Below are positions 17,757 to 55,102 of a stretch of DNA of 55,170 bases, one piece after another; the stretch's first letter is position 1; each line of letters opens with the position of its first letter. Made by a program: the position numbers and the translations under genes. Source of the stretch: an uncultured Phocaeicola sp. (GTDB taxonomy: Bacteria; Bacteroidota; Bacteroidia; Bacteroidales; Bacteroidaceae); contig CALUGI010000023.1 of the NCBI GenBank assembly GCA_944320135.1, forward strand, positions 1 to 55,170. Reading direction: 5' to 3'. The notes under the pieces were generated by a model. The model did not search any database, was not told the origin of the DNA, and was given only the letters and a program-made list of their open reading frames with translations.

Positions 17757-18536
17757 ATGAAAGCAAAGTTACTGATATTCTCCGTCCTGCTGTTCGCTTC
17801 ATGCGGACTGGCGCAGGCGCAACAAACACAAGTTATCGCGCATCAAGGCTTCTGGAACACGCCGGGAGCTGCACGCAACTCCATCGCATCGCTCGTGAAA
17901 GCGGACTCCATCGGATGCTACGGCTCCGAGTTCGATACGGGAATCACGACCGACGGGCAAATAGTCGTAAACCACGACGAGACATTCAGAGGGGTAATCC
18001 AGCAGGCCGCCACGTCAAAGGTCTGCACTTCGATTCGTTTGGACAACGGCGAGTATCTTCCCCTGCTGAAGCAATATGCGGAAAAGGCCAAAGAGCTGAA
18101 CGTCCGGCTCATTCTGGAACTGAAGCCGCACAAGACCTTCAAGCAGGAAACGCGGGCTGCGGAAGAAATCGTAAGGATAATCAAGGAGGCCGGACTGGAG
18201 AAGCGGACGGAATACATCTCGTTCTCACGCCATGCCGTGAAAGAACTTATCCGTCTGGCGCCCAAAGGCTCTCCCGTCTATTACCTGAACGGGGACATCG
18301 CTCCGCAAGTGCTGAAAGCCTGGGGATGCGCAGGGGCGGACTACCGTCTTGAAGTATGGCAGGAACATCCTGAATGGATAAAGGAATGCCACGATCTCGG
18401 CATGAAGGTGAACGTATGGGTCGTGGACAATGAACAGGACTTGAGATGGCTCATTGACCAGAAAGTGGACTTTATCACGACCGACAATCCTCTGCTGCTT
18501 CAAAAACTGCTGAAAGAAAAGAGTAACAGCTTATGA
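17757..18536 (+). CDS. Secreted glycerophosphodiester phosphodiesterase family protein
   Basis: The 259-aa product carries a signal sequence (ISVLLF-type core, ending near AQAQQ) followed by a GDPD TIM-barrel. The diagnostic elements are the N-terminal VIAHQGFW (in place of the usual AHRG), SEFDTGITTDGQIVVNHDETF (metal-binding Glu/Asp and catalytic His), LILELKPH, and a C-terminal KVNVWVVDNEQDLRWL with FITTDNP. GDPD enzymes cleave glycerophosphodiesters such as those of phospholipid head groups or teichoic acids. The ATG at 17757 was preferred to 17739 because it gives a clean signal peptide behind a purine-rich stretch. Its stop overlaps the GH123 start (ATGA), which indicates translational coupling. 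HQG instead of HRG is a noteworthy active-site change. Confidence 0.85.
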   Translation: MKAKLLIFSVLLFASCGLAQAQQTQVIAHQGFWNTPGAARNSIASLVKADSIGCYGSEFDTGITTDGQIVVNHDETFRGVIQQAATSKVCTSIRLDNGEYLPLLKQYAEKAKELNVRLILELKPHKTFKQETRAAEEIVRIIKEAGLEKRTEYISFSRHAVKELIRLAPKGSPVYYLNGDIAPQVLKAWGCAGADYRLEVWQEHPEWIKECHDLGMKVNVWVVDNEQDLRWLIDQKVDFITTDNPLLLQKLLKEKSNSL

Positions 18537-20284
18537 GAACATTTGCCTTATTTGTTTTGCTCGTATGCGGACTCTCATGCTTCGCCGAGAAATATCCTTT
18601 GAAGGAGTATGAAGAACTGACGGACACAAAAGCGCATGACGGTCCGGAAGTGTGGGCAAAAATGAGCGCCCCCGTCTCACTGAGCTGGGGAAGCACAGAT
18701 GTCCGCTACAGGAAGCTGGATGTTCCTGACGTGAAGAAAACGACACGCCTGCAACTGAAGGCATGGAAAGGCGAGCGTGTCAACGCTCAGGCCGTGTTGT
18801 GGACGAAGATTGGCCTGACAGACGTATCTGTATCCGTAAGCGAGTTGAAGTGCGGTTCTTCGGCCATCCCGCAATCGGCCATATCCACCCATTTCGTGCG
18901 CTACGTCATGACCGACGAGTTCGGGAAAGGATGCGACCAGCGTCCGGACAAAACCAAACTGGATTCATCGCTCGTGGCGGACGTGCTCGACATCAACAAG
19001 ACACTCGACGTGAAAGCCTGCAGCACCCGGCCCCTATGGGTGAAGGTATGGGTCCCCACGGACGCGAAAGCCGGAAAATACAAAGGCACACTGGCCGTAT
19101 CGGCAAAGGACCTCAAGCCGATGAAACTTCAGATTGAAGTCAATGTGCTCAACCGCACGCTGCCCGAACCGAAGGACTGGGTCTACTACCTTGACCTGTG
19201 GCAGAACCCGTATGCCGTGGCACGCTACCATCAGGTTCCCCTGTGGAGCCGGGCACACTTCGACGCCATGCGTCCGCTGATGAAGATGCTTGCCGATGCA
19301 GGACAGCGCACCGTCACGGCCAGCATCATGCACAAGCCGTGGAACGGACAGACGGAAGACCATTTCGACAGCATGGTCACACGCATCAAGAAAATAGACG
19401 GCACCTGGAGCTACGACTATACCGTGTTCGACAAATGGGTGACCTTCATGATGGACGAGGCGGGCATCGACGGCATGATATGCTGCTACACCATGATTCC
19501 TTGGGCCTTGAAATTCGACTATTACGACCAAGCCACTAACCGCATGCAGTTCATCGAGGCCAAGCCCGGCGACAAGGCGTATGCCGAATACTGGGGTGCC
19601 TTCCTGAAGGACTTCTCCCGCCATCTCCGCTCGAAGGGGTGGTTCGAAAAAACCGCCATATCAATGGACGAACGCCCGATGGAGGCCATGCGTGAAGCCA
19701 TCAAGGTAGTCAAAGAGGCCGACCCGGAATTCAAGATCACTCTGGCGGGCAACTACCACGCGGAGATTCAGGAGGACCTGCACTATCTGTGCATTCCTTT
19801 CGGCCGGAAGTTCCCGGACGATGTGCTGGCATCACGGAAAAGCAAGGGACAAATCAGCACCTACTACACCTGCTGCACGGAGGCGTTCCCGAACACTTTC
19901 ACCTTCTCCGACCCGGCAGAGGCAACATGGACAGCCATCCATGCCACGGCCGGCAACTACGAAGGCTATCTGCGCTGGGCCGTAAACAGCTGGACGGCCG
20001 ACCCGCTCCGCGACTCCCGTTTCCGCACCTGGCCGGCCGGCGACACCTACAGCATCTATCCCGGACCGAGAAGCAGCATCCGCTTCGAGCGGCTGGTGGA
20101 AGGCATTCAGGACTGCGAGAAAATCCGCATTCTCCGCGAAGAACTGAAAGCGGAAGGCGCCACCGGAAAGCTGAAAAGGCTGGACGAGGAAGTGGCCGGG
20201 TTCAGGTTTGAGGACATTGCCGGAAGCAAGCCTTCGGCAAGCGAAATGGTTGACAATCTGGAAGAATTATTAAATTCCTTCTGA
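18533..20284 (+). CDS. Glycoside hydrolase family 123 (former DUF4091), putative beta-N-acetylgalactosaminidase
   Basis: The 583-aa secreted protein has a signal peptide (about 1-18, ending CFA). Its N-terminal beta-sandwich (about 50-215) contains AWKGERVNAQAVLWTK, and its C-terminal (beta/alpha)8 domain is of the DUF4091/GH123 type. The adjacent Asp-Glu pair in TAISMDERPMEAM (near residue 380) matches the substrate-assisted catalytic DE pair described for GH123. Characterised members remove beta-linked GalNAc from glycosphingolipid-type glycans; that activity is inferred, not shown, here. It overlaps the GDPD gene by four bases and is followed by a terminator. Confidence 0.85.
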   Translation: MRTFALFVLLVCGLSCFAEKYPLKEYEELTDTKAHDGPEVWAKMSAPVSLSWGSTDVRYRKLDVPDVKKTTRLQLKAWKGERVNAQAVLWTKIGLTDVSVSVSELKCGSSAIPQSAISTHFVRYVMTDEFGKGCDQRPDKTKLDSSLVADVLDINKTLDVKACSTRPLWVKVWVPTDAKAGKYKGTLAVSAKDLKPMKLQIEVNVLNRTLPEPKDWVYYLDLWQNPYAVARYHQVPLWSRAHFDAMRPLMKMLADAGQRTVTASIMHKPWNGQTEDHFDSMVTRIKKIDGTWSYDYTVFDKWVTFMMDEAGIDGMICCYTMIPWALKFDYYDQATNRMQFIEAKPGDKAYAEYWGAFLKDFSRHLRSKGWFEKTAISMDERPMEAMREAIKVVKEADPEFKITLAGNYHAEIQEDLHYLCIPFGRKFPDDVLASRKSKGQISTYYTCCTEAFPNTFTFSDPAEATWTAIHATAGNYEGYLRWAVNSWTADPLRDSRFRTWPAGDTYSIYPGPRSSIRFERLVEGIQDCEKIRILREELKAEGATGKLKRLDEEVAGFRFEDIAGSKPSASEMVDNLEELLNSF

Positions 20285-37421: not shown

Positions 37422-38456
37422 ATGTTAGCAAAAATAGAAGAACTGCTTCATGAAGTTGAAAGCATGACTGCCGCCAATGCGGAAGAACTGGAAGCTCTCC
37501 GCATCAAATACCTGAGCAAAAAAGGAGCAGTCAATGCACTGATGGCGGACTTCCGCAACGTGCCGGCCGAACAGAAGAAGGAAGTAGGCATGAAACTGAA
37601 CCAACTGAAGAACCTTGCGCAAGAGCGAATCGCCGCACTGAAAGAGGCGTTCGACAATCAAGACACTGACACGGAAGGGCTCGACCTGACCCGTACAGCA
37701 TATCCCATCGGCTTGGGCACGCGCCACCCGCTCTCAATCGTCAAGAACGAAATCATCGACATATTCGGACGCATGGGCTTTACCATTGCCGAAGGCCCGG
37801 AGGTGGAAGACGACATGCACGTATTCACGATGCTGAACTTTGCAGCCGACCATCCGGCACGCGACATGCAGGATACGTTCTTCGTAGAATCGAACGCTGA
37901 AGACGTGACGAAAAACATCATTCTCCGCACCCACACCAGCAGCGTACAGGCCCGAACGATGGAAAAGACCCAACCGCCCATCCGCGTAATCTGTCCGGGA
38001 CGTGTGTACCGCAACGAAGCCATCAGTTACCGCGCGCATTGTTTCTTCCACCAGATTGAAGGCTTGTACGTAGACAAGAACGTATCATTTACCGACCTGA
38101 AACAAGTGCTTCTGCAATTCGCTCAGGAAATGTTCGGCCCCCAGACCAAAATACGTCTCCGCCCCTCCTACTTCCCGTTTACGGAACCGAGCGCGGAAAT
38201 GGACATCAGCTGCCATATCTGCGGAGGCGAAGGATGCCCGTTCTGCAAACACACGGGATGGGTGGAAATCCTCGGATGCGGGATGGTTGACCCTGCCGTA
38301 CTCGACGCTTGCGGAATCGACAGCAAAATCTATTCGGGCTATGCGTTCGGTCTCGGCGTGGAACGAATCACCAACCTGAAGTATAAGGTAAAAGACCTGC
38401 GCATGTTCTCTGAAAACGATACCCGTTTCCTCAAAGAGTTCGAATCAGCTTATTAA
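37422..38456 (+). CDS. pheS: Phenylalanine--tRNA ligase, alpha subunit
   Basis: PheS is the catalytic subunit of the (alpha-beta)2 synthetase. The 344-aa protein has the N-terminal coiled coil that binds tRNA (residues 1-85), then the class II core: motif 2 near VICPGRVYRNEAISYRAHC, FHQIEGLYVDKNVSF, and motif 3 GLGVERITNLKYKVKDLRMF. A CHICGGEGCPFCKHTGW insert with four Cys near residue 265 is probably a zinc knuckle, absent from the E. coli enzyme as I recall it. pheT is not adjacent; an MFS gene follows. Confidence 0.97.
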   Translation: MLAKIEELLHEVESMTAANAEELEALRIKYLSKKGAVNALMADFRNVPAEQKKEVGMKLNQLKNLAQERIAALKEAFDNQDTDTEGLDLTRTAYPIGLGTRHPLSIVKNEIIDIFGRMGFTIAEGPEVEDDMHVFTMLNFAADHPARDMQDTFFVESNAEDVTKNIILRTHTSSVQARTMEKTQPPIRVICPGRVYRNEAISYRAHCFFHQIEGLYVDKNVSFTDLKQVLLQFAQEMFGPQTKIRLRPSYFPFTEPSAEMDISCHICGGEGCPFCKHTGWVEILGCGMVDPAVLDACGIDSKIYSGYAFGLGVERITNLKYKVKDLRMFSENDTRFLKEFESAY

Positions 38457-42025: not shown

Positions 42026-43087
42026 CTACGCCTTTCTGATATAATCCACAATCCACTCTCCTACTTCCTTCGTGCCGTATTTGGCGCCGCCTTCCACCTG
42101 GATTTCCGGAGTGCGCACATCGGCATCGAGCGAAGCATCGACTGCCTTGCGAATCAGCGCGCCCTCATCTTTCAAGTCGAAATGTTCGAACAGCATCGCC
42201 ACGGAAAGAATCTGAGCCAACGGATTGGCTATATTCAAGCCTTTCGCCTGCGGCCACGAACCGTGAATCGGCTCGAACACCGGAGTGCTTTCCCCCGTAG
42301 AAGCGGAAGGCAGCAGGCCCATCGAACCGCTGATGCAAGAACCTTCGTCCGTCAGAATATCGCCGAAAGTGTTCTCCGTCACCATTACGTCAAAGAATGT
42401 GGGTTCCTGAATCATGCGCATGGCGGCATTGTCCACATACATATAATCCGTGGTCACCTCCGGATAGTTCGGAGCCATTTCCTGCGCAATCTGTCTCCAC
42501 AGACGGGAAGAAGCCAGCACATTGGCCTTGTCCACTACGGTCAGATGCTTGCGGCGTTTCATCGCATACTCGAAAGCCACCTTCAATATACGCTCGATTT
42601 CCGGACGAGTATACATGTTCGTGTCGTAAGCCTTCTCGTCGTCCTGATATTTCTCGCCGAAATACATTCCCCCTGTCAGTTCGCGAATGCAGAGAAAATC
42701 AGCTCCCTCCACGAGTTCCGCGCGGAGAGGCGATTTGTGGAGCAAACACTTGAACGTCTGCACAGGGCGGATATTGGCAAACAATCCTAACTTCTTTCTC
42801 ATTGCCAGCAACCCCTGTTCGGGACGCACCTTTGCTGTCGGGTCATTGTCGAATCTGGGGTCTCCTACCGCAGAAAACAACACGGCGTCCGCTTCCTTGC
42901 ATGTATTGTATGTTTCTTCTGGGAAAGGGTCGCCCACCTCGTCAATGGCATGGGCGCCGCAAAGCGCATATTTATACTCCACCGTATGGCCGAACTTCTC
43001 GCAAACGGCCGTCATTACATTCACGCCTTGTACTGATATTTCCGGGCCGATACCGTCGCCGGCCAATACCGCAATCTTAAAATTCAT
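42026..43087 (-). CDS. leuB: 3-isopropylmalate dehydrogenase
   Basis: LeuB oxidises and decarboxylates 3-isopropylmalate to 2-ketoisocaproate with NAD+. The 353-aa protein has [17 protein letters not shown] at the start, the substrate-binding Arg residues in RPVQTFKC and [13 protein letters not shown], the Lys/Asp site [18 protein letters not shown] with MYVDNAAMR, and [25 protein letters not shown]. The same enzyme type can use methylmalate-derived substrate in citramalate-based isoleucine synthesis. It is the last gene of the leu operon. Confidence 0.96.
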
Positions 43088-43105: not shown

Positions 43106-44641
43106 TTATTCAAAATCATTTTCTACCATATTCAGCATCTTGATAGTGGCTTTTATAGCCGCTTCCGTCTGGTCGGCATCCAGCCCTCTCGTGCGAAACT
43201 CCCGGTCTTCATAGTTCCATGTAATGACCGTCTGCACAAACGCATCGGTACGTCCGCCCGGAGGTATGGACACGGCATAATTGGTCAGCATCGGGAACTT
43301 GCGTCCGAGGGTACCTTTGTATATCTTGCGGAGAGCGCGCACGAACGCATCATACTGTCCGTCTCCCGAAGAACTTTCTTGATAAGTTTTTCCATTTATC
43401 TCGATGCTCAGCGTCGCCATCGGCTTCAATCCCTGGGCCAGCGTAACGAAATAGCTCAGCAAGCGCACTTTATTCTTTCCGCTATCATGCTTCAGCACAT
43501 CGCTGATGATATAAGGCAAATCTTCTTGGGTAACTACTTCCTTGCGGTCGCCCAGTTCGATGATGCGCTGGGTTACCTTCTTCATAGAGTCCTCGTCAAG
43601 TTCCAGTCCGAGACTTTCCAGATTTTTCCGGATGTTCGCCTTTCCGGAGTTTTTGCCCAACGCATATTCTCTGACACGCCCGAAACGTTCAGGAAGCAGA
43701 TCGTTGCAATACAGATTGTTCTTGTTGTCGCCATCGGCATGTACTCCGGCCACTTGCGTAAACACGCTGTCTCCCACAATCGGCTTGTTGGGCGGAATCA
43801 CGACCCCCGAATACGACTCTACGACACGGCTCACTTCGTTCAGACGACTCTCGTCAATATTCGTAACCGCATGGAAATGGTCTTTCAGAATGGCCTGCAC
43901 GCTGGCCAAAGGAGCGTTTCCGGCGCGTTCGCCCAACCCGTTGATAGTGGTATGAAGCCCTTTCACCCCGCTCAAGACAGCGGCAAGCACATTGCTCACC
44001 GCCAAGTCATAGTCATTATGAGCATGGAAATCAAAATGCACGTCCGGATAACGCTTACGCATCTTCCGCATGAACTCAATCACCTGAAGCGGATTCAATA
44101 TACCCAACGTATCAGGAAGCATGAAACGCCGGATATTGCATCCAAGAAGCCCGTCCATCAGTCCGAACACGTATTCGGGCGAATCCTTCATGCCGTTGCT
44201 CCAGTCTTCCAGATAGACGTTCACGTCCAGTCCCTTCTCGTGGGCGTATGCCACCACCGGCCTGATATCGTCCAGATGCTCTTCAAGCGTTTTCTTCAAT
44301 TGGAAGCGGCAATGCTTCTCCGAGCCTTTGGTCAGCAGATTGATGACCTTTCCTCCGGCACCGTGAATCCAGTCGACCGACACATGCCCGTCGACGAAGC
44401 CCAGCACCTCCACCTTATGCAGCAGTCCGCGCCGTGCCGCCCAATCGCAAATCATCTTGACCGCATTGAACTCACCATCCGACACACGTGCCGACGCTAC
44501 CTCTATTCGGTCCACTTTCAGGTCTTCAAGCAGCAAGCGAGCTATCATCAGTTTCTCATGGGGCACGAACGAAACGCCGGAGGTCTGCTCCCCGTCGCGC
44601 AGCGTCGTATCCATGATTTCTATTTTCGGATGATTTTCCAT
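43106..44641 (-). CDS. cimA: Second LeuA-family synthase, probable (R)-citramalate synthase
   Basis: This 511-aa HMGL-like enzyme has [14 protein letters not shown] near residue 12, metal-binding HAHNDYDLAVSN, NGLGERAGNAPLASVQ, and a C-terminal alpha-isopropylmalate synthase regulatory (LeuA dimer) domain from about 390. It is distinct from LeuA 3.6 kb upstream in the operon. It has TSGVSF where LeuA has VPGCQL after DGEQ, and RIEVASARVSDGEFNAV where LeuA has [14 protein letters not shown]. Such paralogues condense acetyl-CoA with pyruvate to citramalate, a route to isoleucine; this specificity is inferred. The start at 44641 ([19 protein letters not shown]) was chosen over a 21-residue upstream extension. 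Confidence 0.82.
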   Translation of the reverse strand: MENHPKIEIMDTTLRDGEQTSGVSFVPHEKLMIARLLLEDLKVDRIEVASARVSDGEFNAVKMICDWAARRGLLHKVEVLGFVDGHVSVDWIHGAGGKVINLLTKGSEKHCRFQLKKTLEEHLDDIRPVVAYAHEKGLDVNVYLEDWSNGMKDSPEYVFGLMDGLLGCNIRRFMLPDTLGILNPLQVIEFMRKMRKRYPDVHFDFHAHNDYDLAVSNVLAAVLSGVKGLHTTINGLGERAGNAPLASVQAILKDHFHAVTNIDESRLNEVSRVVESYSGVVIPPNKPIVGDSVFTQVAGVHADGDNKNNLYCNDLLPERFGRVREYALGKNSGKANIRKNLESLGLELDEDSMKKVTQRIIELGDRKEVVTQEDLPYIISDVLKHDSGKNKVRLLSYFVTLAQGLKPMATLSIEINGKTYQESSSGDGQYDAFVRALRKIYKGTLGRKFPMLTNYAVSIPPGGRTDAFVQTVITWNYEDREFRTRGLDADQTEAAIKATIKMLNMVENDFE

Positions 44642-44671
44642 AACTTTTTTTATATTAAAAGAAAAACACGC

Positions 44672-44761: not shown

Positions 44762-45358
44762 TCAGCTGCGTGTACGTTCAAAATTTTCAATCTTGTCCTT
44801 GTTTTCTACCAAAAAGTCAATGTCGTCAAGTCCGTTCATCAGACAATGCTTCTTGTACGCATTGATTTCAAATGTTTCCGATTTTCCGGTAGCTTTGTTC
44901 GTAATGGTCTGCGCAGGAAGATTCACTACCACCTCCGTTTTCGGGTCTGCATAGATAGAATCAAAAAGCTCTTTGAGGAATCCCTCGCTCACAACCACCG
45001 GAAGCACGAAATTGTTCAGTTCGTTATTCTTGTGAATATCGGCGAAGAAACTGGAAACGACCACGCGAAAGCCGTATCCGGCAATCGCCCATGCCGCATG
45101 TTCGCGGCTGGAACCGCTTCCGAAGTTCTTTCCTGCAACCAGTATCTGGCCGCCGTATGTAGGGTCGTTCAACACAAAATCCTTGTTCAGCGAACCGTCG
45201 GGATTGTATCTCCAGTCACGGAAAAGATTGTCGCCGAAGAATTTTTCTTCACGGGTTGTCGCTTTCAAGAAGCGCGCCGGAATAATCTGGTCTGTGTCCA
45301 CATTTTCCAAAGGCAATGGAACGCATGTGCTGGCAATTATATCAAATTTCTGTTTCAT
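44762..45358 (-). CDS. leuD: 3-isopropylmalate dehydratase, small subunit
   Basis: LeuD is the swivelling small subunit that forms the isopropylmalate isomerase with LeuC. The 198-aa protein shows the LeuD start FDIIASTCVPLPLENVDTDQ, IPARFLKATTREEKFF, and the substrate-binding loop LVAGKNFGSGSSREHAAWAI. The frame opens six bases earlier at a TTG, but the ATG at 45358 is the natural start. It begins 12 bases after the leuC stop. Confidence 0.96.
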   Translation of the reverse strand: MKQKFDIIASTCVPLPLENVDTDQIIPARFLKATTREEKFFGDNLFRDWRYNPDGSLNKDFVLNDPTYGGQILVAGKNFGSGSSREHAAWAIAGYGFRVVVSSFFADIHKNNELNNFVLPVVVSEGFLKELFDSIYADPKTEVVVNLPAQTITNKATGKSETFEINAYKKHCLMNGLDDIDFLVENKDKIENFERTRS

Positions 45359-45370
45359 AGTCAATATCTC

Positions 45371-46765
45371 TTACATTAATGTTCTCGGATCGGTTATCAC
45401 ACCCGTCACGGCAGCGGCGGCGGCAGTCAGCGGACCGGCAAGCAAAGTGCGGGAACCCGGCCCCTGACGGCCCTCAAAGTTCCGGTTGCTTGTCGAAACG
45501 GCATATTTCCCGGCAGGAATCTTGTCATCGTTCATCGCCAGACAAGCCGAACATCCCGGCTGGCGGATTTCAAATCCGGCTTCTTCCAGAATCTTGTCAA
45601 GCCCTTCTTGACGAATCTGCGCATCCACCATCCATGACCCCGGCACCAACCAAGCCGTGATGTTGCCTGCTTTCTTCCGACCTTTGGCAATAGAAGCGAA
45701 AGCTCGGAAGTCCTCGATGCGCCCGTTCGTGCAGGCGCCAAGGAAGACATAGTCCACCTTCTTTCCAAGCAACGGCTCTCCCGGTTCGAATCCCATATAG
45801 TTCAACGACTTTTCAAAGGAAGTCTTCTCCACTTCAGACATACCTTCGACTGTTGGGATACAGTCTGTTATCGCCATACCCATCCCCGGATTTGTTCCGT
45901 ATGTAATCATCGGCTGAATATCTGCCGCGTCATAGCGCACTTCTTTGTCAAACACCGCATCGTCATCGCTTTTCAACGTTTTCCAATAAGCCAATGCCTT
46001 GTCCCATTCCTCGCCTTTCGGAGCATACTCGCGCCCCTTGATATATTCAAAGGTCACTTCATCCGGAGCAATCATACCGCCTCTGGCTCCCATCTCTATC
46101 GAAAGGTTACACAAGGTAAGGCGACCTTCCATCGTCAGGCTGCGGATTGCTTCTCCGGCATATTCCACGAAATAACCCGTGGCGCCGCTCGTCGTCATCT
46201 TCGACATCATATACAAAGCGACATCCTTGGCCGTAACGCCTTTGCCGAGCTTTCCGTCGATAGTGATGCGCATCGTCTTCGGACGCGACTGGAGGATACA
46301 CTGCGAGGCCATTACCATTTCCACCTCGCTCGTTCCGATGCCGAAAGCCACAGCCCCCATAGCCCCGTGAGTAGAGGTGTGAGAGTCACCGCACACGATG
46401 GTCATTCCCGGCAAAGTAAGCCCTCGCTCCGGTCCCACCACGTGGATAATTCCGTTCCGCTTGTCCATCATTCCGAAATGCGCCAAACCGAAATCTGCCG
46501 CATTCTTCGCCAAAGCATCCACTTGCGCCTTCGATACCGGATCCTCAATCGGCTTGTCCTGATCGTGGGTGGGCGTATTGTGGTCCGGCATACAATAGAT
46601 ACGTTCCGGACGGAAACACTTCAAGCCTCTTGCACGCATACCGGCAAAAGCCTGCGGACTGGTCACCTCGTGACAATAAAGACGGTCAATATACAACTGG
46701 ACGGGTCCGTCTTCAACCGTCTGCACTACATGTGCATCCCATATTTTATCAAATAAAGTGTTCAT
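45371..46765 (-). CDS. leuC: 3-isopropylmalate dehydratase, large subunit
   Basis: LeuC carries the [4Fe-4S] cluster of isopropylmalate isomerase. The 464-aa protein starts [16 protein letters not shown] and shows [21 protein letters not shown], the cluster Cys in [14 protein letters not shown], and two more in [18 protein letters not shown]. The upstream in-frame extension to 46804 would run into the leuA end and was not used. It lies 14 bases after leuA. Confidence 0.96.
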
Positions 46766-46779
46766 GAATCTAATAACGG

Positions 46780-48276
46780 TTATTTCCTGAATTTGTTGAT
46801 ACAATCAATATAAGCCTCTACCGAAGCGGCGATGATGTCGGTGTTTGCTCCGAAGCCATAATACATCTGCCCGTCATATTCCACCTGCATGTGAACCTTA
46901 CCCACATCGTCACTGCCTTTGCTGATAGCCTGGATGGTAAATTCCTTCAGTGTCATCTGACGGCGGATAATCTGCTTGACAGCTTTGATGGCCGCATCCA
47001 CAGGCCCGTTGCCGGTGGCAGCCGCCTCAAAATGTTCACCGCTGATATTCAGTCCCAAGCTGGCGACAGAGCGCACTCCCACGCCACTGGTCACTTGAAG
47101 ATATTCCAATTTGATGTGATGGTTCACATTACGGTCCGCACCGGCCAACACCAGAATATCGTCATCCGTAATGTCTTTCTTCTTGTCTGCCAGCTTCAAG
47201 AAATCCTCATACACCTTGTCCAGCTTTTCCTGGCTCATTTCCACTCCCAACACATGCAGGCGATGTTTCAACGCCGCACGTCCGCTACGTGCCGTCAACA
47301 CGATTGCGTTGTCATCGATGCCTACGTCTTTCGGATTGATGATTTCATAAGTCTGTACATTTTTCAGTACACCGTCCTGATGGATTCCTGAAGAATGAGC
47401 AAACGCATTCCGGCCCACAATCGCCTTATTAGGCTGTACCGGCATGTTCATCAGACTGGAAACCATACGGCTTGTAGGGCAAATCTTCTGAGTATTGATG
47501 TTGGTATCAATATTCAAATGCTTGTGACAGCGCAAAATCATGGCCACTTCTTCAAGCGATGTGTTTCCGGCGCGCTCGCCGATGCCGTTGATTGTCACTT
47601 CCACCTGACGCGCCCCGTTCAGCACACCGCTGACGGTGTTGGCGGTGGCCATGCCCAAATCATTATGGCAATGGGTGGAGACAATGGCTTTGTCGATGCC
47701 GTCCACATGGTCAACGAGATACTTGATTTTCTCTCCATACTCGTCCGGAAGGCAATAGCCGGTCGTGTCGGGGATATTGACCACCGTAGCTCCTGCCTTG
47801 ATGACCGCCTCGACCACACGCGCCAGATACTCATTGTCCGTGCGTCCCGCATCCTCTGCATAAAATTCCACGTCGTCTACATAACGGCGCGCATATTTCA
47901 CAGCCGCTACGGCACGCTCGATAATTTCTTCGCGGGTGGAATTGAACTTGTATTTGATATGAGGGTCGGAAGTGCCGATTCCTGTATGAATGCGCTTGCG
48001 CTTGGCAAACTTCAAGGCTTCGGCAGCCACATCAATATCCTTCTCGACCGCACGGGTCAAAGCGCAGATAGTCGGCCATGTCACAGCCTTCGATATTTCA
48101 ATCACAGAATTGAAATCACCCGGACTCGAAACGGGGAAACCTGCTTCAATCACGTCTACTCCCAAAGCCTCCAACTGCTTTGCCACCTGAATCTTTTCGA
48201 CTGTATTCAACTGGCATCCGGGGACTTGTTCGCCGTCGCGCAATGTCGTGTCAAAAATAAACAATCTTTCACTCAT
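46780..48276 (-). CDS. leuA: 2-isopropylmalate synthase
   Basis: LeuA condenses acetyl-CoA with 2-ketoisovalerate, the committed and normally leucine-inhibited step. The 498-aa protein has [20 protein letters not shown] (residues 8-27), the metal-binding [33 protein letters not shown], and a C-terminal LeuA dimer/regulatory domain from about 375 that should bind leucine. It is the first structural gene of the leu operon, 85 bases after the leader peptide stop codon and behind an attenuator. Confidence 0.96.
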
Positions 48277-48306
48277 AGCTTATGTTTTTATGTATCACTC
48301 AAACAA

Positions 48307-48339
48307 AAAGCCTTTCGCACAGGAAGTGAGAAAGGCTTT
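48307..48339 (-). terminator. Attenuator terminator in the leuA leader
   Basis: On the minus strand AAAGCCTTTC (48339-48330), a 13-base loop, GAAAGGCTTT (48316-48307) and a TTTTGTTT-type tail form a strong intrinsic terminator that ends 31 bases before the leuA start. The bases CTCACTTCC in its 5' side and loop (48330-48322) can instead pair with GGAAGTGGG inside the leader peptide gene (48382-48374), which would destroy the terminator. This is the classical attenuator arrangement. Confidence 0.85.
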
Positions 48340-48361
48340 ATATCGTTTTTGCTTACCGCAT

Positions 48362-48445
48362 TTACGCACACGACCCACTTCCCATTGGTTTTTCCAATAG
48401 AATAATCAGACCATTTAGCAAAATGTGGATAAACAATGTATTCAT
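48362..48445 (-). CDS. leuL: Leucine/isoleucine-rich leader peptide of the leu operon
   Basis: This 27-codon ORF starts MNTLFIHILLNGLIILLE and ends KPMGSGSCA. It has six Leu and four Ile codons within residues 4-17, including ILL and IILL runs, far above chance for a random 27-codon frame. A GGGAC-type purine stretch lies just before the ATG. Its stop codon lies 22 bases before the terminator stem. Ribosome stalling at the Leu/Ile runs would free GGAAGTGGG (codons 22-24) to pair with the terminator; completion of the peptide would cover it. The gene is too short for routine annotation; the call is from sequence logic plus operon context. Confidence 0.82.
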   Translation of the reverse strand: MNTLFIHILLNGLIILLEKPMGSGSCA

Positions 48446-48470
48446 GTCCCTGTTTTTTATATTCCGGATG

Positions 48471-48478
48471 CAAAGGTA
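48471..48478 (-). promoter_or_regulatory. -7 element (TACCTTTG) for the leu operon leader
   Basis: Minus-strand TACCTTTG lies 25 bases before the leader peptide start. TTTG at 48500-48497, 18 bases upstream, may be the -33 element. Transcription would start near 48464. Confidence 0.65.
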
Positions 48479-48607
48479 TAGCTTTTTTTGAAACGACAAA
48501 ACAAAACCGTTATTTTTTCGTTTGTAAAAATAATGATTTGTCACAAATGAAGGCTGCATACGGTTCCTTCTATTCGCATTCAACCTCAACCGCTAACAGA
48601 ATGCTAT

Positions 48608-50221
48608 TCAGACCAACGGGCAAAGTTCTTCCACCTGCTTCTCGAAATCGTCCCTCACTATCGCTTTGTTCTTGACCGCACTCCGGTAATTGTAAATGGT
48701 TTGCGGCGAATAAAACAATAAAGTAGCTATTTTCGAACTGTCTTTGATGCCGATGCGTATCAAGGCGAATATCCGAAGCTCCGTATTCAGAATCTCCCCT
48801 TTCTTGGGAACAATCCGTTCATCTTCCCGCAAAAGAGAGTTGAATTCTTCAACAAACTTGGGATAAACAGCCAGAAAAGCCGTATCGAAATTGACAAAAA
48901 ACTCTTTCGCATCCAAGTCTGACATTTTGGAAGAATTGGCCATCTTCAGCAAATCATCCATCTGTTTGGCTTTGACTTTGCGCTTCACCAGTCCCTGATA
49001 TTTGTTCAACTTCTCGATATAAGCGGCACAAAGTTCGAGGAAAAGGCTCACGTACCCTTCACGAATACGATTGGTGTCCACCAGCTCGCGGTTCAGCCGC
49101 TGCAACCGCCCGTTCACTGCAACCAGTTCGCTCTTTTTGGCGCGCAACAGACGCATCTGCTTACAAATATAGAGCAACGAAAGCAGCAGCCCGACAGAAA
49201 GGATGCCGATAAAGGAAGCGGTCAGCGCCAAGCGACGGCTCTTTTCCTTATTCTGCTGCTGATAGGCCACGACAATAGGAGGAAACTTCTTGGCTATCTC
49301 AAGCAGACGCAGCCGGTTGTTATAGAAGATAGCGTCTTCCATCGAATAGTTCAGATAGCGGTTTGCCTGATCCACATCCTCCACACGGGTCTTGTAGATG
49401 TGCAGTGCCAGCTCCTGCATGGAAAGATTCTCTTTCAAAGGGCACATCTGGTCGGAAATGGCGGAAAGAATCAAGTATTTCTCATACTCATCATACTCGC
49501 CTTTATATGCATAGTTCATGGCAAGCCCGCAGGTGACGCAGGCATAAAGGCGCGTATCTATCGGGGTTCCCTCCAATGCCTTGAGATAATACTCCTCTAT
49601 TCTGTTCCAATTGCCCGAATACCTCATGTTTTCAGCCTTACGATAATAATATTCTTGCGTATCCGGCTCCAGCACGCCCAACAAAGAATCTCCATACAGA
49701 ATGTATTTCTCCCGATAACGGGGAGCGTACACGTTGTCGTTCGAATATTCAGCCCACACATTGTATGCCCACTGGCAAGCCTGATAATACTCCTTGTCCA
49801 GTCTCAGGTCAAAGACGGAACGGTCGACTTGGGAAAGGGCGGCCACGGCTTCGCTGAAGTATCCGGCAGTGGAAAGCAGGTAACCGCGATATATCGTGAA
49901 CAGATTCCTGTAGTAGGCGTTGTGGCGTTCCAACGCCAGTTCTTCGGCCTTGTCTACATACACCATCGCCGAATCAAACTTATACACATAATATTCTTGG
50001 TAGATGGCATCGTAAATGCGAAACGTTTCTTCCGTCGAGCGGGCAACCGGCAACAGCCTTTTCAAGCTGTCTATCTTGTGTTCTTTCCGGCTCATGTACT
50101 CGCTGCGATGTTTCAGGGCGTATTCCAGACGATGATACAGAGAGTCCAACGCAGCGGCCTCCGCAGAAAGACAGACCGCACTCAACACACACGCAAGAAC
50201 CGTTTTTCTCATTTTTCTCAT
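48608..50221 (-). CDS. DUF6377-type membrane regulator with TPR-like sensor and C-terminal LuxR-like HTH
   Basis: The 537-aa protein has a signal-like N-terminus (MRKTVLACVLSAVCLSAEA), about 300 residues of helical TPR-like repeats on the periplasmic side, and one membrane helix near 330-350 (ALTASFIGILSVGLLLSLLYI). A coiled coil follows (about 355-390), then a cytoplasmic tail that ends in an HTH resembling LuxR/GerE (LNTELRIFALIRIGIKDSSKI, then LLFYSPQTIYNYRSAVKNK). This SusR-like layout suits a one-component envelope sensor. It is divergent from the TonB receptor/GH36 pair, its likely targets. ATG 50212 is an alternative start. Confidence 0.85.
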   Translation of the reverse strand: MRKMRKTVLACVLSAVCLSAEAAALDSLYHRLEYALKHRSEYMSRKEHKIDSLKRLLPVARSTEETFRIYDAIYQEYYVYKFDSAMVYVDKAEELALERHNAYYRNLFTIYRGYLLSTAGYFSEAVAALSQVDRSVFDLRLDKEYYQACQWAYNVWAEYSNDNVYAPRYREKYILYGDSLLGVLEPDTQEYYYRKAENMRYSGNWNRIEEYYLKALEGTPIDTRLYACVTCGLAMNYAYKGEYDEYEKYLILSAISDQMCPLKENLSMQELALHIYKTRVEDVDQANRYLNYSMEDAIFYNNRLRLLEIAKKFPPIVVAYQQQNKEKSRRLALTASFIGILSVGLLLSLLYICKQMRLLRAKKSELVAVNGRLQRLNRELVDTNRIREGYVSLFLELCAAYIEKLNKYQGLVKRKVKAKQMDDLLKMANSSKMSDLDAKEFFVNFDTAFLAVYPKFVEEFNSLLREDERIVPKKGEILNTELRIFALIRIGIKDSSKIATLLFYSPQTIYNYRSAVKNKAIVRDDFEKQVEELCPLV

Positions 50222-50475: not shown

Positions 50476-52776
50476 ATGAAACCTAAATTCTTTTACCTGA
50501 TGATGTCCGCACTCATCCCGGCCATGCCGGAAGCGGCGAATGCGGAATCAATGAAACACATGTATGCGTCGCCGCAAGACTCGCTGAAGACCGAATCGCC
50601 CAAGAAACCGGAAGGAAGTGAACGAAACGTGATGCTGAACGCTTCGGACGCCAACAAGCCCCGCGAAATCCAAATCGGACTTCCCAGCGAAGACGTCAAC
50701 GTGTACGAAAACGGGCTTCCGGCCGTATATTCTTCAGCCGTCCATAAACTGGCCGCACATTGGAGAAGCGACGCGAGCTTGGGAGAAGTGGGACTGCTCA
50801 CCCCGTCCGAATCTGCCATCATGACCGGCAACATCGCCTATTCCGTCAACTCGTTCAGCAAACTCGGACAGAAAGAGTTCAAAGGGATGCTGAACTATCG
50901 GGCAAACCACTTCGGAATGCAGCAGTTCGACCTGAACGTATCGGGAGGAATCGGCAACAAATGGCTCTATACGGCCAGCGCATACCAGAACTTCGATCCG
51001 GGGAGCTTCGACTTGAAAATCGACGAATATTCAGACAGGACGCAAATCTATCACGCAGGGCTGACCCGGCTGTTCGACAACAACCGGGGAAAGATTTCCG
51101 TCATCTACAAATATGCCAACAGCCGCAATCCGGGCAACTTCTTCAACCAGGCGCCTTTCATCTACGTGGGCGACGGCTCGGTGAAGGAGCTTCCGGGGTT
51201 CTCGTTGGGAACGGCTTCTTACGGGCCTAAGAACGGCGACATCGAATACATGGACGTAATGAACGGGCAGATGACGAAGGCGAACCTCCGCGACCTTACC
51301 CACAACCGCTCGCACGAAGTCGCATTGCTCACGGACTATACCTTCGGAAACGGCATGAAATGGACGCTGAACATGAAGTACATGAACGCTCCGGAAGCGA
51401 ATTTCGTGGATTTCGGAGGAAGCACGATTTCTGAAATCACGGCAGCCGACGGATACATTGACGGAGACGGAAATCCGTTTGAAGGATTAGTGGAAGGAAG
51501 ACGCACATGGCTGCACTTCGGAAAGGTGCAGAACTTCCTGGTCACTTCCGAACTCCAGAAGCGATTCGGCAACCACGGACTCCGCTTGGGGCTGAACGAA
51601 TGGTATTACCATCTTGACTACCATTCGTCTTCCCTGCAATGGGTGGGCTCGGTGCAGGAATATCCGGAAATCCTGACAGGGCCGGACGGAGAGAAATTCC
51701 GGGGATTCAACGAACTGAGCCCGGAGTACACCAAAGGATACGAAAACAAGCTGGCTCTCTACCTGACAGACAACTGGCAGATTACGCCGAAACTGAACTT
51801 GTACTACGGAGGACGTCTGGAATACTACCGCATGTCGGCCGACCAAATCCCATACGCCCGCTATGCCGGATTCCACATCGGAGACGTACACACCTACGCC
51901 AATGCCGACGGCTCGGCCTGCACGGAGTCCATCGCCCCGCACAAAGTGGTAAAAGACAAGCTGAACTACGCGGCCACCGCACGCATCACCTACAACCTGA
52001 CAAAAGAGTTCGGACTGACTGCTGACGGAACCGTCGCCACCCGCTTCCCGCGCATCAACGAATATGCCGGCACGGGGCCTACGGAGGCGCAGTACAACCG
52101 CGTGACTATCCCGCTCGTGCGCGGAGGGCTTTTCTACAAGAACGATTGGATTGACCTCACTTCAATGGTCACATACATCGCGAAATCAAACAACATTGAC
52201 CAGCAGAACATCACCAAGCCGGGAACGACCGAATCGAAAACCACCCTGCTGATTTACGACATCCAGACGTTAGGATGGACTACCTCCGCCGAAGTAGACC
52301 CCTTCAAAGGATTCCACCTGCACGCGCTGTTCACCTACCAGAAACCGGTGTACAACAACTATCAGGCCACCGTCACCTTCAACGACGGCTCTACACAGAC
52401 GCTGGACGCAAACGGAAACATCGTAAAAGAAATTCCCCAAATACTGGTGGAACTTGACCCAAGCTACAACATTACCAAAGACTTGCGGGTATGGCTGAGT
52501 TTTCGTTACTTCGGGAAAACATACGCGAACCTGACCGACGCGCTTTACTTCAACGGGCGATGGGAGACCTTCGGAGGCGTGAACTGGAACGTGAACAAGC
52601 ATCTTTCGCTCGGAGTGAGCGTAATCAACTTCCTCAACCAGAAAGGCGCCAGCGGAACCATCAGCGGTTCGGAACTGATTTCGAAGGAAGAGGCTGCCCG
52701 CTTCAACAACATGTATATGAGCGGCACCTACCTCCGCCCCTTCACCGTAGAATTCAGCGCAAGCATCAAGTTCTGA
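50476..52776 (+). CDS. TonB-dependent receptor without a SusD partner
   Basis: The 766-aa protein has a signal peptide (about 1-23, ending ANA). It has an N-terminal region with a degenerate plug domain (IQIGLPSEDVNVYENGLPAVY, then GNIAYSVNSFSKLG) and a beta-barrel of alternating amphipathic strands that ends in an aromatic outer-membrane signature (TYLRPFTVEFSASIKF). No carboxypeptidase-D-like or STN domain precedes the plug, so it is not a standard SusC and has no SusD next to it. It is followed by the GH36 gene, which suggests uptake of galactosides. The ligand is inferred only from that neighbour. Confidence 0.88.
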   Translation: MKPKFFYLMMSALIPAMPEAANAESMKHMYASPQDSLKTESPKKPEGSERNVMLNASDANKPREIQIGLPSEDVNVYENGLPAVYSSAVHKLAAHWRSDASLGEVGLLTPSESAIMTGNIAYSVNSFSKLGQKEFKGMLNYRANHFGMQQFDLNVSGGIGNKWLYTASAYQNFDPGSFDLKIDEYSDRTQIYHAGLTRLFDNNRGKISVIYKYANSRNPGNFFNQAPFIYVGDGSVKELPGFSLGTASYGPKNGDIEYMDVMNGQMTKANLRDLTHNRSHEVALLTDYTFGNGMKWTLNMKYMNAPEANFVDFGGSTISEITAADGYIDGDGNPFEGLVEGRRTWLHFGKVQNFLVTSELQKRFGNHGLRLGLNEWYYHLDYHSSSLQWVGSVQEYPEILTGPDGEKFRGFNELSPEYTKGYENKLALYLTDNWQITPKLNLYYGGRLEYYRMSADQIPYARYAGFHIGDVHTYANADGSACTESIAPHKVVKDKLNYAATARITYNLTKEFGLTADGTVATRFPRINEYAGTGPTEAQYNRVTIPLVRGGLFYKNDWIDLTSMVTYIAKSNNIDQQNITKPGTTESKTTLLIYDIQTLGWTTSAEVDPFKGFHLHALFTYQKPVYNNYQATVTFNDGSTQTLDANGNIVKEIPQILVELDPSYNITKDLRVWLSFRYFGKTYANLTDALYFNGRWETFGGVNWNVNKHLSLGVSVINFLNQKGASGTISGSELISKEEAARFNNMYMSGTYLRPFTVEFSASIKF

Positions 52777-52795
52777 AAAACGCCCTTGGCAGCAA

Positions 52796-52833
52796 AAACG
52801 TCCCGGCGTTCCGGCCGGCTCTCCGGGACGTTT
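52796..52833 (+). terminator. Intrinsic terminator-type hairpin after the TonB receptor
   Basis: AAACGTCCCGG (52796-52806) pairs with CCGGGACGTTT (52823-52833) around a 16-base loop containing TTCCGGCCG, the same nine bases found in the loop of the hairpin at 79-121. A second small hairpin, AAAAATGC-CGCC-GCATTTTT (52837-52856), follows immediately and shares 19 bases with 80-98. Confidence 0.7.
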
Positions 52834-52909
52834 CAAAAAAATGCCGCCGCATTTTTCAGACCGCCGGACAAACAGGAAAAAACGCATAAACCCTATAAAC
52901 AAAAAAGCC

Positions 52910-55102
52910 ATGAAAAAAGTATTGTTAGCAACCGCATTGGCCTGCATGACCCTTACGGGGGTTGATGCCGCCGAACAAAAGTTCATCCGTATCTCTACAG
53001 ACAATACGGACCTGATTCTGCAAGTAGCCCCCAACGGACGGCTCTATCAATCGTACCTCGGAGAAAAGCTCCTGCACGAAAGCGACCTGAAAAACCTCCC
53101 GTGGGATGTACACGCCGCCTCCGACGGAAGCGTGAGCCAACGGGGATGGGAAGTGTACAGCGGTTCGGGCAACGAAGATTTCTTCGAGCCTGCAATAGCC
53201 GTCACCCACAGCGACGGAAATCCTTCCACTTACCTCTATTATGTGTCTTCCTCTTCGCAGCCGGTAGAAGGCGGAACGGAAACGACCGTTAACCTGCGCG
53301 ACGACAAATATCCGGTAGACGTGACCCTGCATTACATTGCCTACGCAAAAGAAAACGTCATCAAGACGTGGAGCGAAATCAAGCATCAGGAAAAGAAGCC
53401 CGTATTGCTGTCGAGATACGCATCCGCCATGCTGTACTTCAACCGCGCAAGCTATTATCTGACAGAATTCAGCAGCGATTGGGCAAAGGAGATGCAGATG
53501 AGCTCCCAGCAGCTCCAGCCGGGCAAAAAAATCCTCGACACTAAATTGGGAAGCCGGGCAGCCATGCACATGCAGCCCTTCTTCGAAATAGGATTCGACC
53601 GGCCCGCCGACGAGCATGAAGGAGACGTGCTCATGGGAACGGTAGGATGGACAGGGAATTTCCGCTTCACGTTTGAAGTGGACAATGTGGGTAACCTTCG
53701 CGTCATCCCGGCCATCAATCCGTATGCCTCCAACTACGAACTGAAAGCCGGAGAAACGTTCACTACTCCCGAATTCATCTTCACCCTGAGCCGCAAAGGG
53801 ACAGGACTCGGAAGCCGCAACCTCCAGACTTGGGCAAGAAACTATCAGCTCAAAGACGGAAAAGGAGAGCGCATGACATTGCTGAACAACTGGGAAAACA
53901 CAGCCTTCAACTTCAACCAAGAGATACTGGCCAACCTGATGAAAGAGGCCAAACATCTGGGAGTAGACATGTTCCTGCTCGACGACGGATGGTTCGGCAA
54001 CAAATATCCGCGCAAGGACGACCATGCAGGGCTGGGCGACTGGGAGGTAACTCGCGACAAGCTGCCCGGCGGCATTAAGGCGTTGACAGAAGCAGCCAAG
54101 GAAGCAGGCGTGAAATTCGGTATCTGGATTGAGCCGGAAATGGTCAACCCGAAAAGCGAACTGTTCGAAAAGCATCCCGAATGGGCTATCCATTACCCCA
54201 ACCGTGACATGTATTTCTACCGCAACCAGCTGGTGCTCGACCTGAGCAATCCCGAAGTGCAAGACTACGTATATGGCATCGTAGACAAAATATTGACCGG
54301 GAATCCGGAAGTTGCCTACTTCAAATGGGACTGCAACAGCCCGATTACAAACATCTATTCGCCGTATCTGAAAGACAAGCAAGGGCAGCTGTACATCGAC
54401 CACGTGCGCGGCATCTACAACGTATTGAAGCGCATCAAAGAAAATCACCCGAATGTGCCGATGATGCTGTGCTCCGGAGGCGGAGCGCGCTGCGACTATG
54501 AAGCTCTGAAATACTTCACGGAATTCTGGTGCAGCGACAACACGGACCCGATAGAGCGCATCTATATCCAATGGGGATTCTCGCAGTTCTTCCCGGCAAA
54601 AGCCATGTGCGCCCACGTAACAAGCTGGAACAAGAACACATCTGTGAAGTTCCGTACCGATGTAGCGTCCATGTGCAAATTGGGATTCGACCTTGGATTG
54701 AAAGAGTTGAGCGCAGACGAACTGGCATACTGTCAGAAAGCGGTAGCCAATTGGAAGAGCTTCCAACCGGCAATCATGGAAGGAGACCAATACCGCCTTG
54801 TATCTCCCTACAAGAGCAACCACATGGCTGTCAACTATGTAAGCCAAGACAAGAAACAGGCCATCCTGTTTGCGTATGACATCCACCCACGCTTTCAGGA
54901 AAAACTGATGAACGTCAAGCTGCAAGGACTCGACCCGAACACAATGTACAAAGTAGAAGAAATCAATCTGATGCCGAACACCGCATCAACCCTGAAAGCT
55001 GACGGAAAACTGCTTTCCGGCGACTATCTGATGAAAGTCGGTCTGGAGGTGTTCGGATTCACACAAGCTCAAAGCCACGTAATTTCAATTACAGCACAAT
55101 AA
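52910..55102 (+). CDS. Alpha-galactosidase, glycoside hydrolase family 36
   Basis: The 730-aa secreted enzyme starts MKKVLLATALACMTLTGVDA (signal peptide). An N-terminal beta-supersandwich (about 25-290) precedes the catalytic barrel. GH36 signatures are LLDDGWFGNKYPRKDDHAGLGDW, split by the active-site Asp residues, the nucleophile Asp in YFKWDCNSPITN (near 480), and CSGGGARCDYEAL followed by FWCSDNTDPIER (acid/base Asp near 545). It should release alpha-1,6-galactose from melibiose- or raffinose-type oligosaccharides in the periplasm. The frame opens at 52841, but the start at 52910 gives the signal peptide. It is the last gene of the receptor-GH36 pair and is followed by a terminator. Confidence 0.95.
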   Translation: MKKVLLATALACMTLTGVDAAEQKFIRISTDNTDLILQVAPNGRLYQSYLGEKLLHESDLKNLPWDVHAASDGSVSQRGWEVYSGSGNEDFFEPAIAVTHSDGNPSTYLYYVSSSSQPVEGGTETTVNLRDDKYPVDVTLHYIAYAKENVIKTWSEIKHQEKKPVLLSRYASAMLYFNRASYYLTEFSSDWAKEMQMSSQQLQPGKKILDTKLGSRAAMHMQPFFEIGFDRPADEHEGDVLMGTVGWTGNFRFTFEVDNVGNLRVIPAINPYASNYELKAGETFTTPEFIFTLSRKGTGLGSRNLQTWARNYQLKDGKGERMTLLNNWENTAFNFNQEILANLMKEAKHLGVDMFLLDDGWFGNKYPRKDDHAGLGDWEVTRDKLPGGIKALTEAAKEAGVKFGIWIEPEMVNPKSELFEKHPEWAIHYPNRDMYFYRNQLVLDLSNPEVQDYVYGIVDKILTGNPEVAYFKWDCNSPITNIYSPYLKDKQGQLYIDHVRGIYNVLKRIKENHPNVPMMLCSGGGARCDYEALKYFTEFWCSDNTDPIERIYIQWGFSQFFPAKAMCAHVTSWNKNTSVKFRTDVASMCKLGFDLGLKELSADELAYCQKAVANWKSFQPAIMEGDQYRLVSPYKSNHMAVNYVSQDKKQAILFAYDIHPRFQEKLMNVKLQGLDPNTMYKVEEINLMPNTASTLKADGKLLSGDYLMKVGLEVFGFTQAQSHVISITAQ

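Follow-up and report, generated by a model that had tools for sequence, protein, structure and literature searches.

The window, by which we mean the whole stretch of 55,170 nucleotides that was analysed (contig CALUGI010000023.1 of an uncultured Phocaeicola sp.), carries on its minus strand a leucine-biosynthesis operon, in which a short leader is followed by leuA, leuC, leuD, a citramalate-synthase-like gene and leuB. Its genes are as follows:

46780..48276, minus strand: leuA, 2-isopropylmalate synthase (TIGR00973/NF002086)
45371..46765, minus strand: leuC, 3-isopropylmalate dehydratase large subunit (start codon chosen by us)
44762..45358, minus strand: leuD, 3-isopropylmalate dehydratase small subunit (start codon chosen by us)
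43106..44644, minus strand: cimA-like gene, probable citramalate synthase of the Leptospira type (start codon chosen by us)
42026..43087, minus strand: leuB, 3-isopropylmalate dehydrogenase

The best PDB match of the cimA-like product is 3ble, the citramalate synthase of Leptospira interrogans (E 2.8e-116), and against NF042433 (CimA) it scores 644.5 bits, under the NCBIfam cut-off of 950. Directly upstream of the operon, on the same strand, lies a SusR-family glycan regulator (NF058541; 48608-50221, minus strand), and divergent from it, at 50476-55102, are TonB-receptor-like and alpha-galactosidase-like ORFs, whose identities come from reading the translations only.

A preliminary description had placed a leader-peptide attenuator with leucine and isoleucine codons at 48301..48478. 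The element is found exactly there, with promoter box, leader ORF, terminator and leuA following one another on the minus strand:

48478-48471, minus strand: -7 promoter box TACCTTTG, of the Bacteroidetes TAnnTTTG type
48445-48362, minus strand: leader ORF MNTLFIHILLNGLIILLEKPMGSGSCA, with its ATG at 48445 and its stop at 48364-48362
48395..48406, minus strand: putative control codons ATT ATT CTA TTG (Ile-Ile-Leu-Leu), leader codons 14-17, or -8 to -5 relative to segment 2
48379..48402, minus strand: protector hairpin (segments 1:2), TTCTATTGG / CCAATGGGAA, from folding and from pair counts in the alignment
48382-48374, minus strand: segment 2, GGAAGTGGG, 5' strand of the antiterminator, in leader codons 22-24
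48330-48322, minus strand: segment 3, CTCACTTCC, 3' strand of the antiterminator, made of the last base of the terminator's 5' arm and of its loop
48339-48307, minus strand: intrinsic terminator (segments 3:4), with a T-rich tract after the hairpin to about 48300

When translated, the leader has the 27 codons, six for leucine and four for isoleucine, that had been claimed for it, and both the sequence and the comparison below mark it as a small reading frame in which codons for the end products of its operon are clustered; its stop codon lies 9 nt past segment 2. The claimed antiterminator stands as well, segment 2 being complementary to segment 3 within the terminator. The hairpin between the leader ORF and the first structural gene, leuA, had been called strong, and at -19.9 kcal/mol (z -6.8) it was equalled in stability by none of 200 shuffles; its stem pairs AAAGCCTTTC with GAAAGGCTTT (48339-48330 / 48316-48307), continues inwards with CAC/GTG and is followed by the T-rich tract. 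The whole 181-nt leader folds with a z of -3.9. A simple consensus scan for terminators did not pick up this one, since the scan allows loops of up to 8 nt and the loop here has 13. Within the window, on both strands, the combination of terminator, antiterminator and leader ORF reached a score of at least 50 only at this place, the scan having covered the regions before ORFs that begin with ATG and have 150 aa or more; pheS, at 37422, had no comparable leader in that scan. The TTTTG at 48497-48501 is a possible -33 element, judged by the consensus. The -7 consensus of Bacteroidetes promoters is named in a passage of PMC9723704, and the same passage, on flavobacteria, mentions that the phylum is reported to be without Shine-Dalgarno sequences.

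Conservation and base-pair covariation in Bacteroidales

A match to leuA is present in 58 of 60 genomes of the same genus, and the named best matches include P. coprocola, P. barnesiae and P. vulgatus. The best-hit set comprised 110 leuA loci with 99 distinct upstream regions, of which 87 passed a joint score for terminator and antiterminator, against 2 of 198 shuffles. Upon reading, five of those passing were rejected (L062, L079, L093, L105 and L106) and L053, where the script had picked a wrong terminator, and L081 were accepted, so that the net effect of reading was five out and one in. Leader, segments and terminator thus occur in the same order in 83 of the 99, and 16 have no clear copy (L056, L060, L062, L064, L065, L079, L087, L090, L091, L092, L093, L099, L104, L105, L106 and L109). 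In L087 leuA lies, by reading, directly behind an apparent ilvC end. L104, a Paludibacteraceae MAG, is counted as absent and is possibly a diverged copy; here and in L228, probably the same genome, a Leu/Ile ORF is accompanied by a GGAG/CTCC variant that our scripts did not accept. In Phocaeicola vulgatus ATCC 8482 (L044) and in L050, leuA with its leader comes soon after a 5S rRNA gene.

In the order-wide sample leuA was present in 47 of 119 and in 162 of 392 genomes, and 146 upstream regions (46 + 100) were read; 14 of the 162 leuA-bearing genomes, and the same-genus genome G059, lay outside the upstreams taken. A strict rule was passed by 76 of the 146 as compared with none of 438 shuffles; one of these passes, L240 in genome G329, is false, there being no real leader on reading. 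Among the 70 failures about seven have leuA behind an apparent ilvC (eight were flagged, L301 unconvincingly). The result that the preliminary description had named as contrary to its reading, relatives that keep the operon and lose the element, therefore occurs in part (16/99 best-hit and 70/146 order-wide upstreams), alongside the 83/99 and 76/146 that keep it. Outside Bacteroidales no leuA-proximal element was found in 40 leuA upstreams taken from 90 matches (20 from other orders of the class and 20 from other classes of the phylum), and phage records gave no match. It appears that the putative leuA leader switch is recurrent in many Bacteroidales relatives.

For the comparison of codons and pairings we used an alignment of 75 rows, in which near-duplicates more than 93% alike and L078, cut at a contig start, were left out. 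In all 75 aligned loci the leader ATG is preceded, at 18-39 nt, by a promoter box of the TAnnTTTG type, against 101 of 1500 shuffles. The terminator is paired in 94.9% of cells and has two-sided changes in 8 of 13 pairs, with none of 500 shuffles as high. The antiterminator is paired in 93.6% of cells, with 11 double-change cells against 3.4 in shuffles (0/500 as high); two-sided changes are seen in four of its nine pairs, and 14 of 500 shuffles attain that number, as do controls slid by +2 and +3, yet these controls pair in less than 45% of cells. A Paraprevotella MAG (L094), for instance, has the variant antiterminator GGAAAGTG/CACTTTCT, and a Prevotella MAG (L107) has CAAGTGAG/CTCACTTG. In distant families the letters are others and the pairing is kept, as in GTGAGAATG/CATTCTCAC (L176, L282 and L284) and TGAGAATGG/CCATTCTCA (L168 and L288). 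All of these shuffles ignore kinship.

A third pairing, absent from the preliminary description, is the protector hairpin, in which the control codons pair with the strand before and into segment 2. From the full set of 75 rows RNAalifold predicted no hairpin in the leader, a weak one appearing solely with 17 Prevotella-like rows; the protector was therefore taken from single-sequence folds (25 rows) and counted separately. It is paired in 77.0% of cells, with 68 double-change cells against 37.0 in shuffles (0/500) and a covariation score of 0.414 against 0.246, which no shuffle of 500 reached; two-sided changes in six of its seven pairs were reached by 249 of 500 shuffles and so represent no excess. 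The predicted protector is weaker than the terminator and antiterminator pairings, and its bulge seems to shift between lineages. Folding of the leader ORF is only moderately stronger than that of synonymous recodings (38 of the 75 leaders; mean z -1.0, 11 at p<0.05, nine with positive z). Two-sided base-pair changes are present in all three predicted structures. The comparison that the preliminary description had proposed, of Leu/Ile codons and of compensatory changes in both of its pairings across Bacteroidales, thus came out in its favour.

Leader codons and the enzymes of the operon

Counted back from segment 2, the most conserved residue is the leucine at codon -5 (72 of 75 leaders). Codon -6 is Leu in 57 and Arg in 18, codons -7 and -8 are Ile in 59 and 61, codon -9 is Ile in 37 and Leu in 28, and codon -4 is mixed. 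The leucine at -5 is written CTG in 29 leaders, TTG in 20, CTA in 14, CTT in six and CTC in three, so that what is kept here is the residue and not a particular string of bases; isoleucine is almost always ATT. Segment 2, on the other hand, has the same reading frame in 70 of the 75 leaders, whereas five read it in another and have the stop inside it; it is therefore kept as RNA. In 67 of the 75 leaders the stop codon comes 9-21 nt after segment 2, in six it lies within the segment and in two it precedes it. The latter, L021 and L080, have low joint scores (44.3 and 41.2) and are possibly decaying switches.

The preliminary description had explained the isoleucine codons by the citramalate synthase in the operon, with both Leu and Ile being sensed. 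We sought cimA in 46 and in 57 genomes and tabulated 80 leaders. Where cimA lies within 12 kb of leuA, all 67 leaders have 2-7 Ile codons; in genomes without cimA, the four leaders have 0, 0, 1 and 1 Ile, and 4-7 Leu; and where cimA lies elsewhere or linkage is not visible, nine leaders have from 0 to 7 Ile. Fisher's test gives p of about 1e-6, uncorrected for kinship. Six tabulated rows fail the strict rule (G259, G100, G232, G317, G375 and G358), and when the test was repeated on the strict rows only (62, 4 and 8 leaders), at least two Ile were found in 62 of 62 linked and at most one in four of four cimA-free leaders (p 1.4e-6). "Absent" here means no cimA match beyond LeuA at 1e-30 (G067 and G084) or none at 1e-70 (G288 and G351), and the cimA-free genomes represent two independent cases at best, because G067, G288 and G351 belong to one family and G084 to another. 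The ORF picker favours I/L/V-rich frames, equally in all cimA classes.

Three genomes with cimA near leuA stand outside the table. G096 has a leader with many Ile codons that passes the strict rule, and G235 has no ATG leader and, on reading, an Ile-rich ORF started by GTG. In G329, whose terminator resembles the others in type, nothing convincing as a leader lies between terminator and promoter box; the ORF behind its strict pass (L240) has six codons, none for Ile, and overlaps the promoter box, and we judged it to be no leader. If G329 is counted, it is one exception to the rule for linked cimA.

Thus, in the few sampled relatives without the operon's predicted isoleucine-pathway gene, Ile codons are nearly gone, and the putative two-amino-acid input appears to follow the pathway enzymes, as the preliminary description had proposed; the claim rests on two lineages for the cimA-free side. 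The mixed third class fits the view that leuCDB would serve both pathways, yet it limits how far Ile codons can be tied to cimA.

One may also consider that the switch is the same and is mainly a sensor of leucine, the Ile codons merely slowing translation or holding RNA pairs. The prominence of Leu at -5 would agree with this, as would the cimA-free leaders, which retain Leu and hardly any Ile, the wide range of Ile numbers in the nine leaders of the third class, and the fact that some Ile and Leu codons also form the protector hairpin. However, Ile is itself frequent at -8 and -7, no tabulated leader with linked cimA has fewer than two Ile, and Prevotella-type leaders keep their Ile run even though -6 is Arg in 18 rows. 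We regard a mainly leucine-sensing switch as improbable, if the best of the alternatives.

A covariance model of the element (R1) found in its own genome one further credible place, before ilvD (E 5.7e-4):

G000:C22:5997-6165 (L144), minus strand: sister attenuator candidate before ilvD-ilvB-ilvN-(thioesterase-like ORF)-ilvC (names from reading translations), with a Val/Ile/Leu leader peptide MKTIHTLINLAVLHVVRVVVVEPRGEGASCM and an antiterminator GGTGAGGGAG/CTTTCTCACC, after which a terminator follows

Elsewhere R1 matched 50 of 198 Bacteroidales genomes, and the 13 loci with a readable downstream gene have leuA (9), ilvD (3) or ilvB (1). In G165 (L143) two R1 matches stand in tandem before ilvD (C25:18235-18394 and 18397-18548), possibly a double attenuator. 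All 30 same-genus ilvD loci examined have 3 to 7 Val codons in the leader (37 of 40 genomes have ilvD); at one of the ilvD loci, L210, the antiterminator picked by the script looks wrong. Three or more Val occur in only 2 of 74 strict leu leaders, and in 8 of the 75 aligned ones, mostly of Prevotella types. Since Val is found in the ilvD leaders and rarely in the leu leaders, the codons follow the products of the operon. Two other searches in the same genome were less telling: the pattern CCTTTCTCN{3,20}GAAAGG had three matches including the leu leader against four for a backwards control, and a pattern of His-codon runs, for a his leader, had 42 against eight, too many to tell.

On balance, we lean towards a reading in which sister attenuators across Bacteroidales share one plan, with Ile/Leu codons before leu and Leu/Ile/Val codons before ilv genes, and in which the residues sensed would be re-edited along with the enzymes of the operon, Ile codons being kept with cimA and dropped upon its loss. 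If this is true, the codons of the leader record the pathway by which isoleucine is made.

Probable attenuation by a translating ribosome

The conserved anatomy, the positions of the codons and the covariation in both of the pairings first described strongly support ribosome-mediated attenuation as the preliminary description had it, and the element before leuA is very probably a transcription attenuator of this kind. A rival reading takes the hairpin merely for the terminator of the SusR-like gene upstream, which ends at 48608, or for insulation of the leu operon, with an incidental ORF. That gene is on the same strand, intergenic terminators are ordinary, and in G329 a similar terminator apparently persists with no leader; yet a promoter box stands between the SusR-like gene and the leader, as such a box does in every aligned locus, the Leu and Ile codons stay at fixed distances from segment 2, and the antiterminator strand, needless for a plain terminator, is kept and covaries, all of which makes a plain terminator very unlikely. 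Least probable of all is a riboswitch or T-box, binding a ligand or a tRNA, in which the small ORF is a coincidence; a structured 5' leader with alternative folds might suggest it, but the conserved bases are codons, two pairing strands and a terminator, and no Rfam 15 family reached its gathering score in the window, 12 related loci giving rRNAs only. At E<=10 nothing in Rfam came near its gathering score, the best leader-type match being Phe_leader with 15.9 bits against the 55 required, and the Leu_leader, T-box and riboswitch models did not match the leuA leader.

In attenuators of the E. coli leuL/ilvL type, which belong to the leu, ilv, his and trp operons of proteobacteria, a short leader with control codons is combined with protector, antiterminator and terminator pairings, and a ribosome at the stop codon favours termination. 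The leuA leader likewise has candidate control codons, protector, antiterminator and terminator. It differs in that segment 3 consists of the terminator loop and the end of its 5' arm, not of the whole arm, in its Bacteroidetes promoter type, in its Ile codons within a leu operon that carries cimA and, unlike the proteobacterial leader families, in reaching no Rfam leader family's gathering score. The principle of attenuation is classical, and the leuA leader would be a new and widespread member of the class, with a putative input of two amino acids. Bacteroidales rank among the most abundant bacteria of the gut, and the leuA leader offers a testable post-initiation switch for their leu and ilv genes, in which leader codons are suggested to track a change of pathway enzymes.

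The attenuator class of leader peptides is described in PMC1183508, and attenuators of branched-chain amino acid genes are described for Actinobacteria and Staphylococcus (PMC1262725 and PMC5794164). The Staphylococcus one resembles the leuA leader in having a leucine-rich leader peptide before amino-acid genes outside the proteobacteria; both come from other phyla and are likened here by description only. Closer by phylum, and from a different order, are the "strong clues" of leader peptides upstream of amino-acid biosynthesis operons in Flavobacterium psychrophilum, where the passage of PMC9723704 names no operon, and in B. thetaiotaomicron an excerpt of PMC7366714 mentions sORFs reminiscent of leader peptides. 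The Bacteroid-trp RNA (RF01692), listed in PMC2864571 as a putative cis-regulatory RNA of Bacteroidetes, belongs by its name to trp genes, and the leuA leader does not match it. Passages of PMC8040213 and PMC2864571 name no such motif. Judged by titles, the starts of abstracts and passages, we found no description of the leuA leader element, and in such material little on the control of branched-chain amino acid synthesis in Bacteroidales.

Anatomy, conservation, covariation and the codon-enzyme link are what sequence and comparison show; translation of the leader, stalling of ribosomes in it and a response to amino acids are the predicted part of the model. Transcription would begin from the promoter that directly precedes the leader, with a ribosome trailing the polymerase through the 27 codons. 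When charged Leu- and Ile-tRNA are ample, the ribosome at the stop codon would cover segment 2, the terminator would form and leuACD-cimA-leuB would be off. When either is short, the ribosome would stall on Ile-Ile-Leu-Leu (codons 14-17) and open the protector hairpin, and segment 2, thus freed, could pair with segment 3 while segment 4 is still to be transcribed, letting the polymerase read through. Without translation, segment 2 would tend to be held by the protector hairpin, leaving the terminator to form. The Ile codons would be there because the operon also makes isoleucine via citramalate.

Folding with the ribosome masked was carried out on 73 loci (L053 and L081 were left out), assuming a ribosome edge 11 nt past the A-site codon. 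With a stall at the last Leu and the RNA ending before segment 4, the antiterminator formed in 69 of 73; broken antiterminators in L021 and L080 were considered and dropped, neither being among the four failures. With the ribosome at the stop codon, the terminator formed in 73 of 73 and the antiterminator in none, so under the assumed footprint a stop-bound ribosome masks segment 2 and a stalled one leaves it free. In untranslated nascent RNA, segment 2 was held by upstream bases in 53 of 73 and the antiterminator formed in 19, hence the protector hairpin is no universal block; at full length the untranslated RNA formed the terminator in all 73. Besides the protector hairpin and the ilv sister leader, the preliminary description also lacked the terminator's usual win at equilibrium: at full length with a stalled ribosome, 60 of 73 loci form the terminator and 13 the antiterminator. 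Control must therefore be kinetic, with the antiterminator forming first, as classical attenuation likewise needs.
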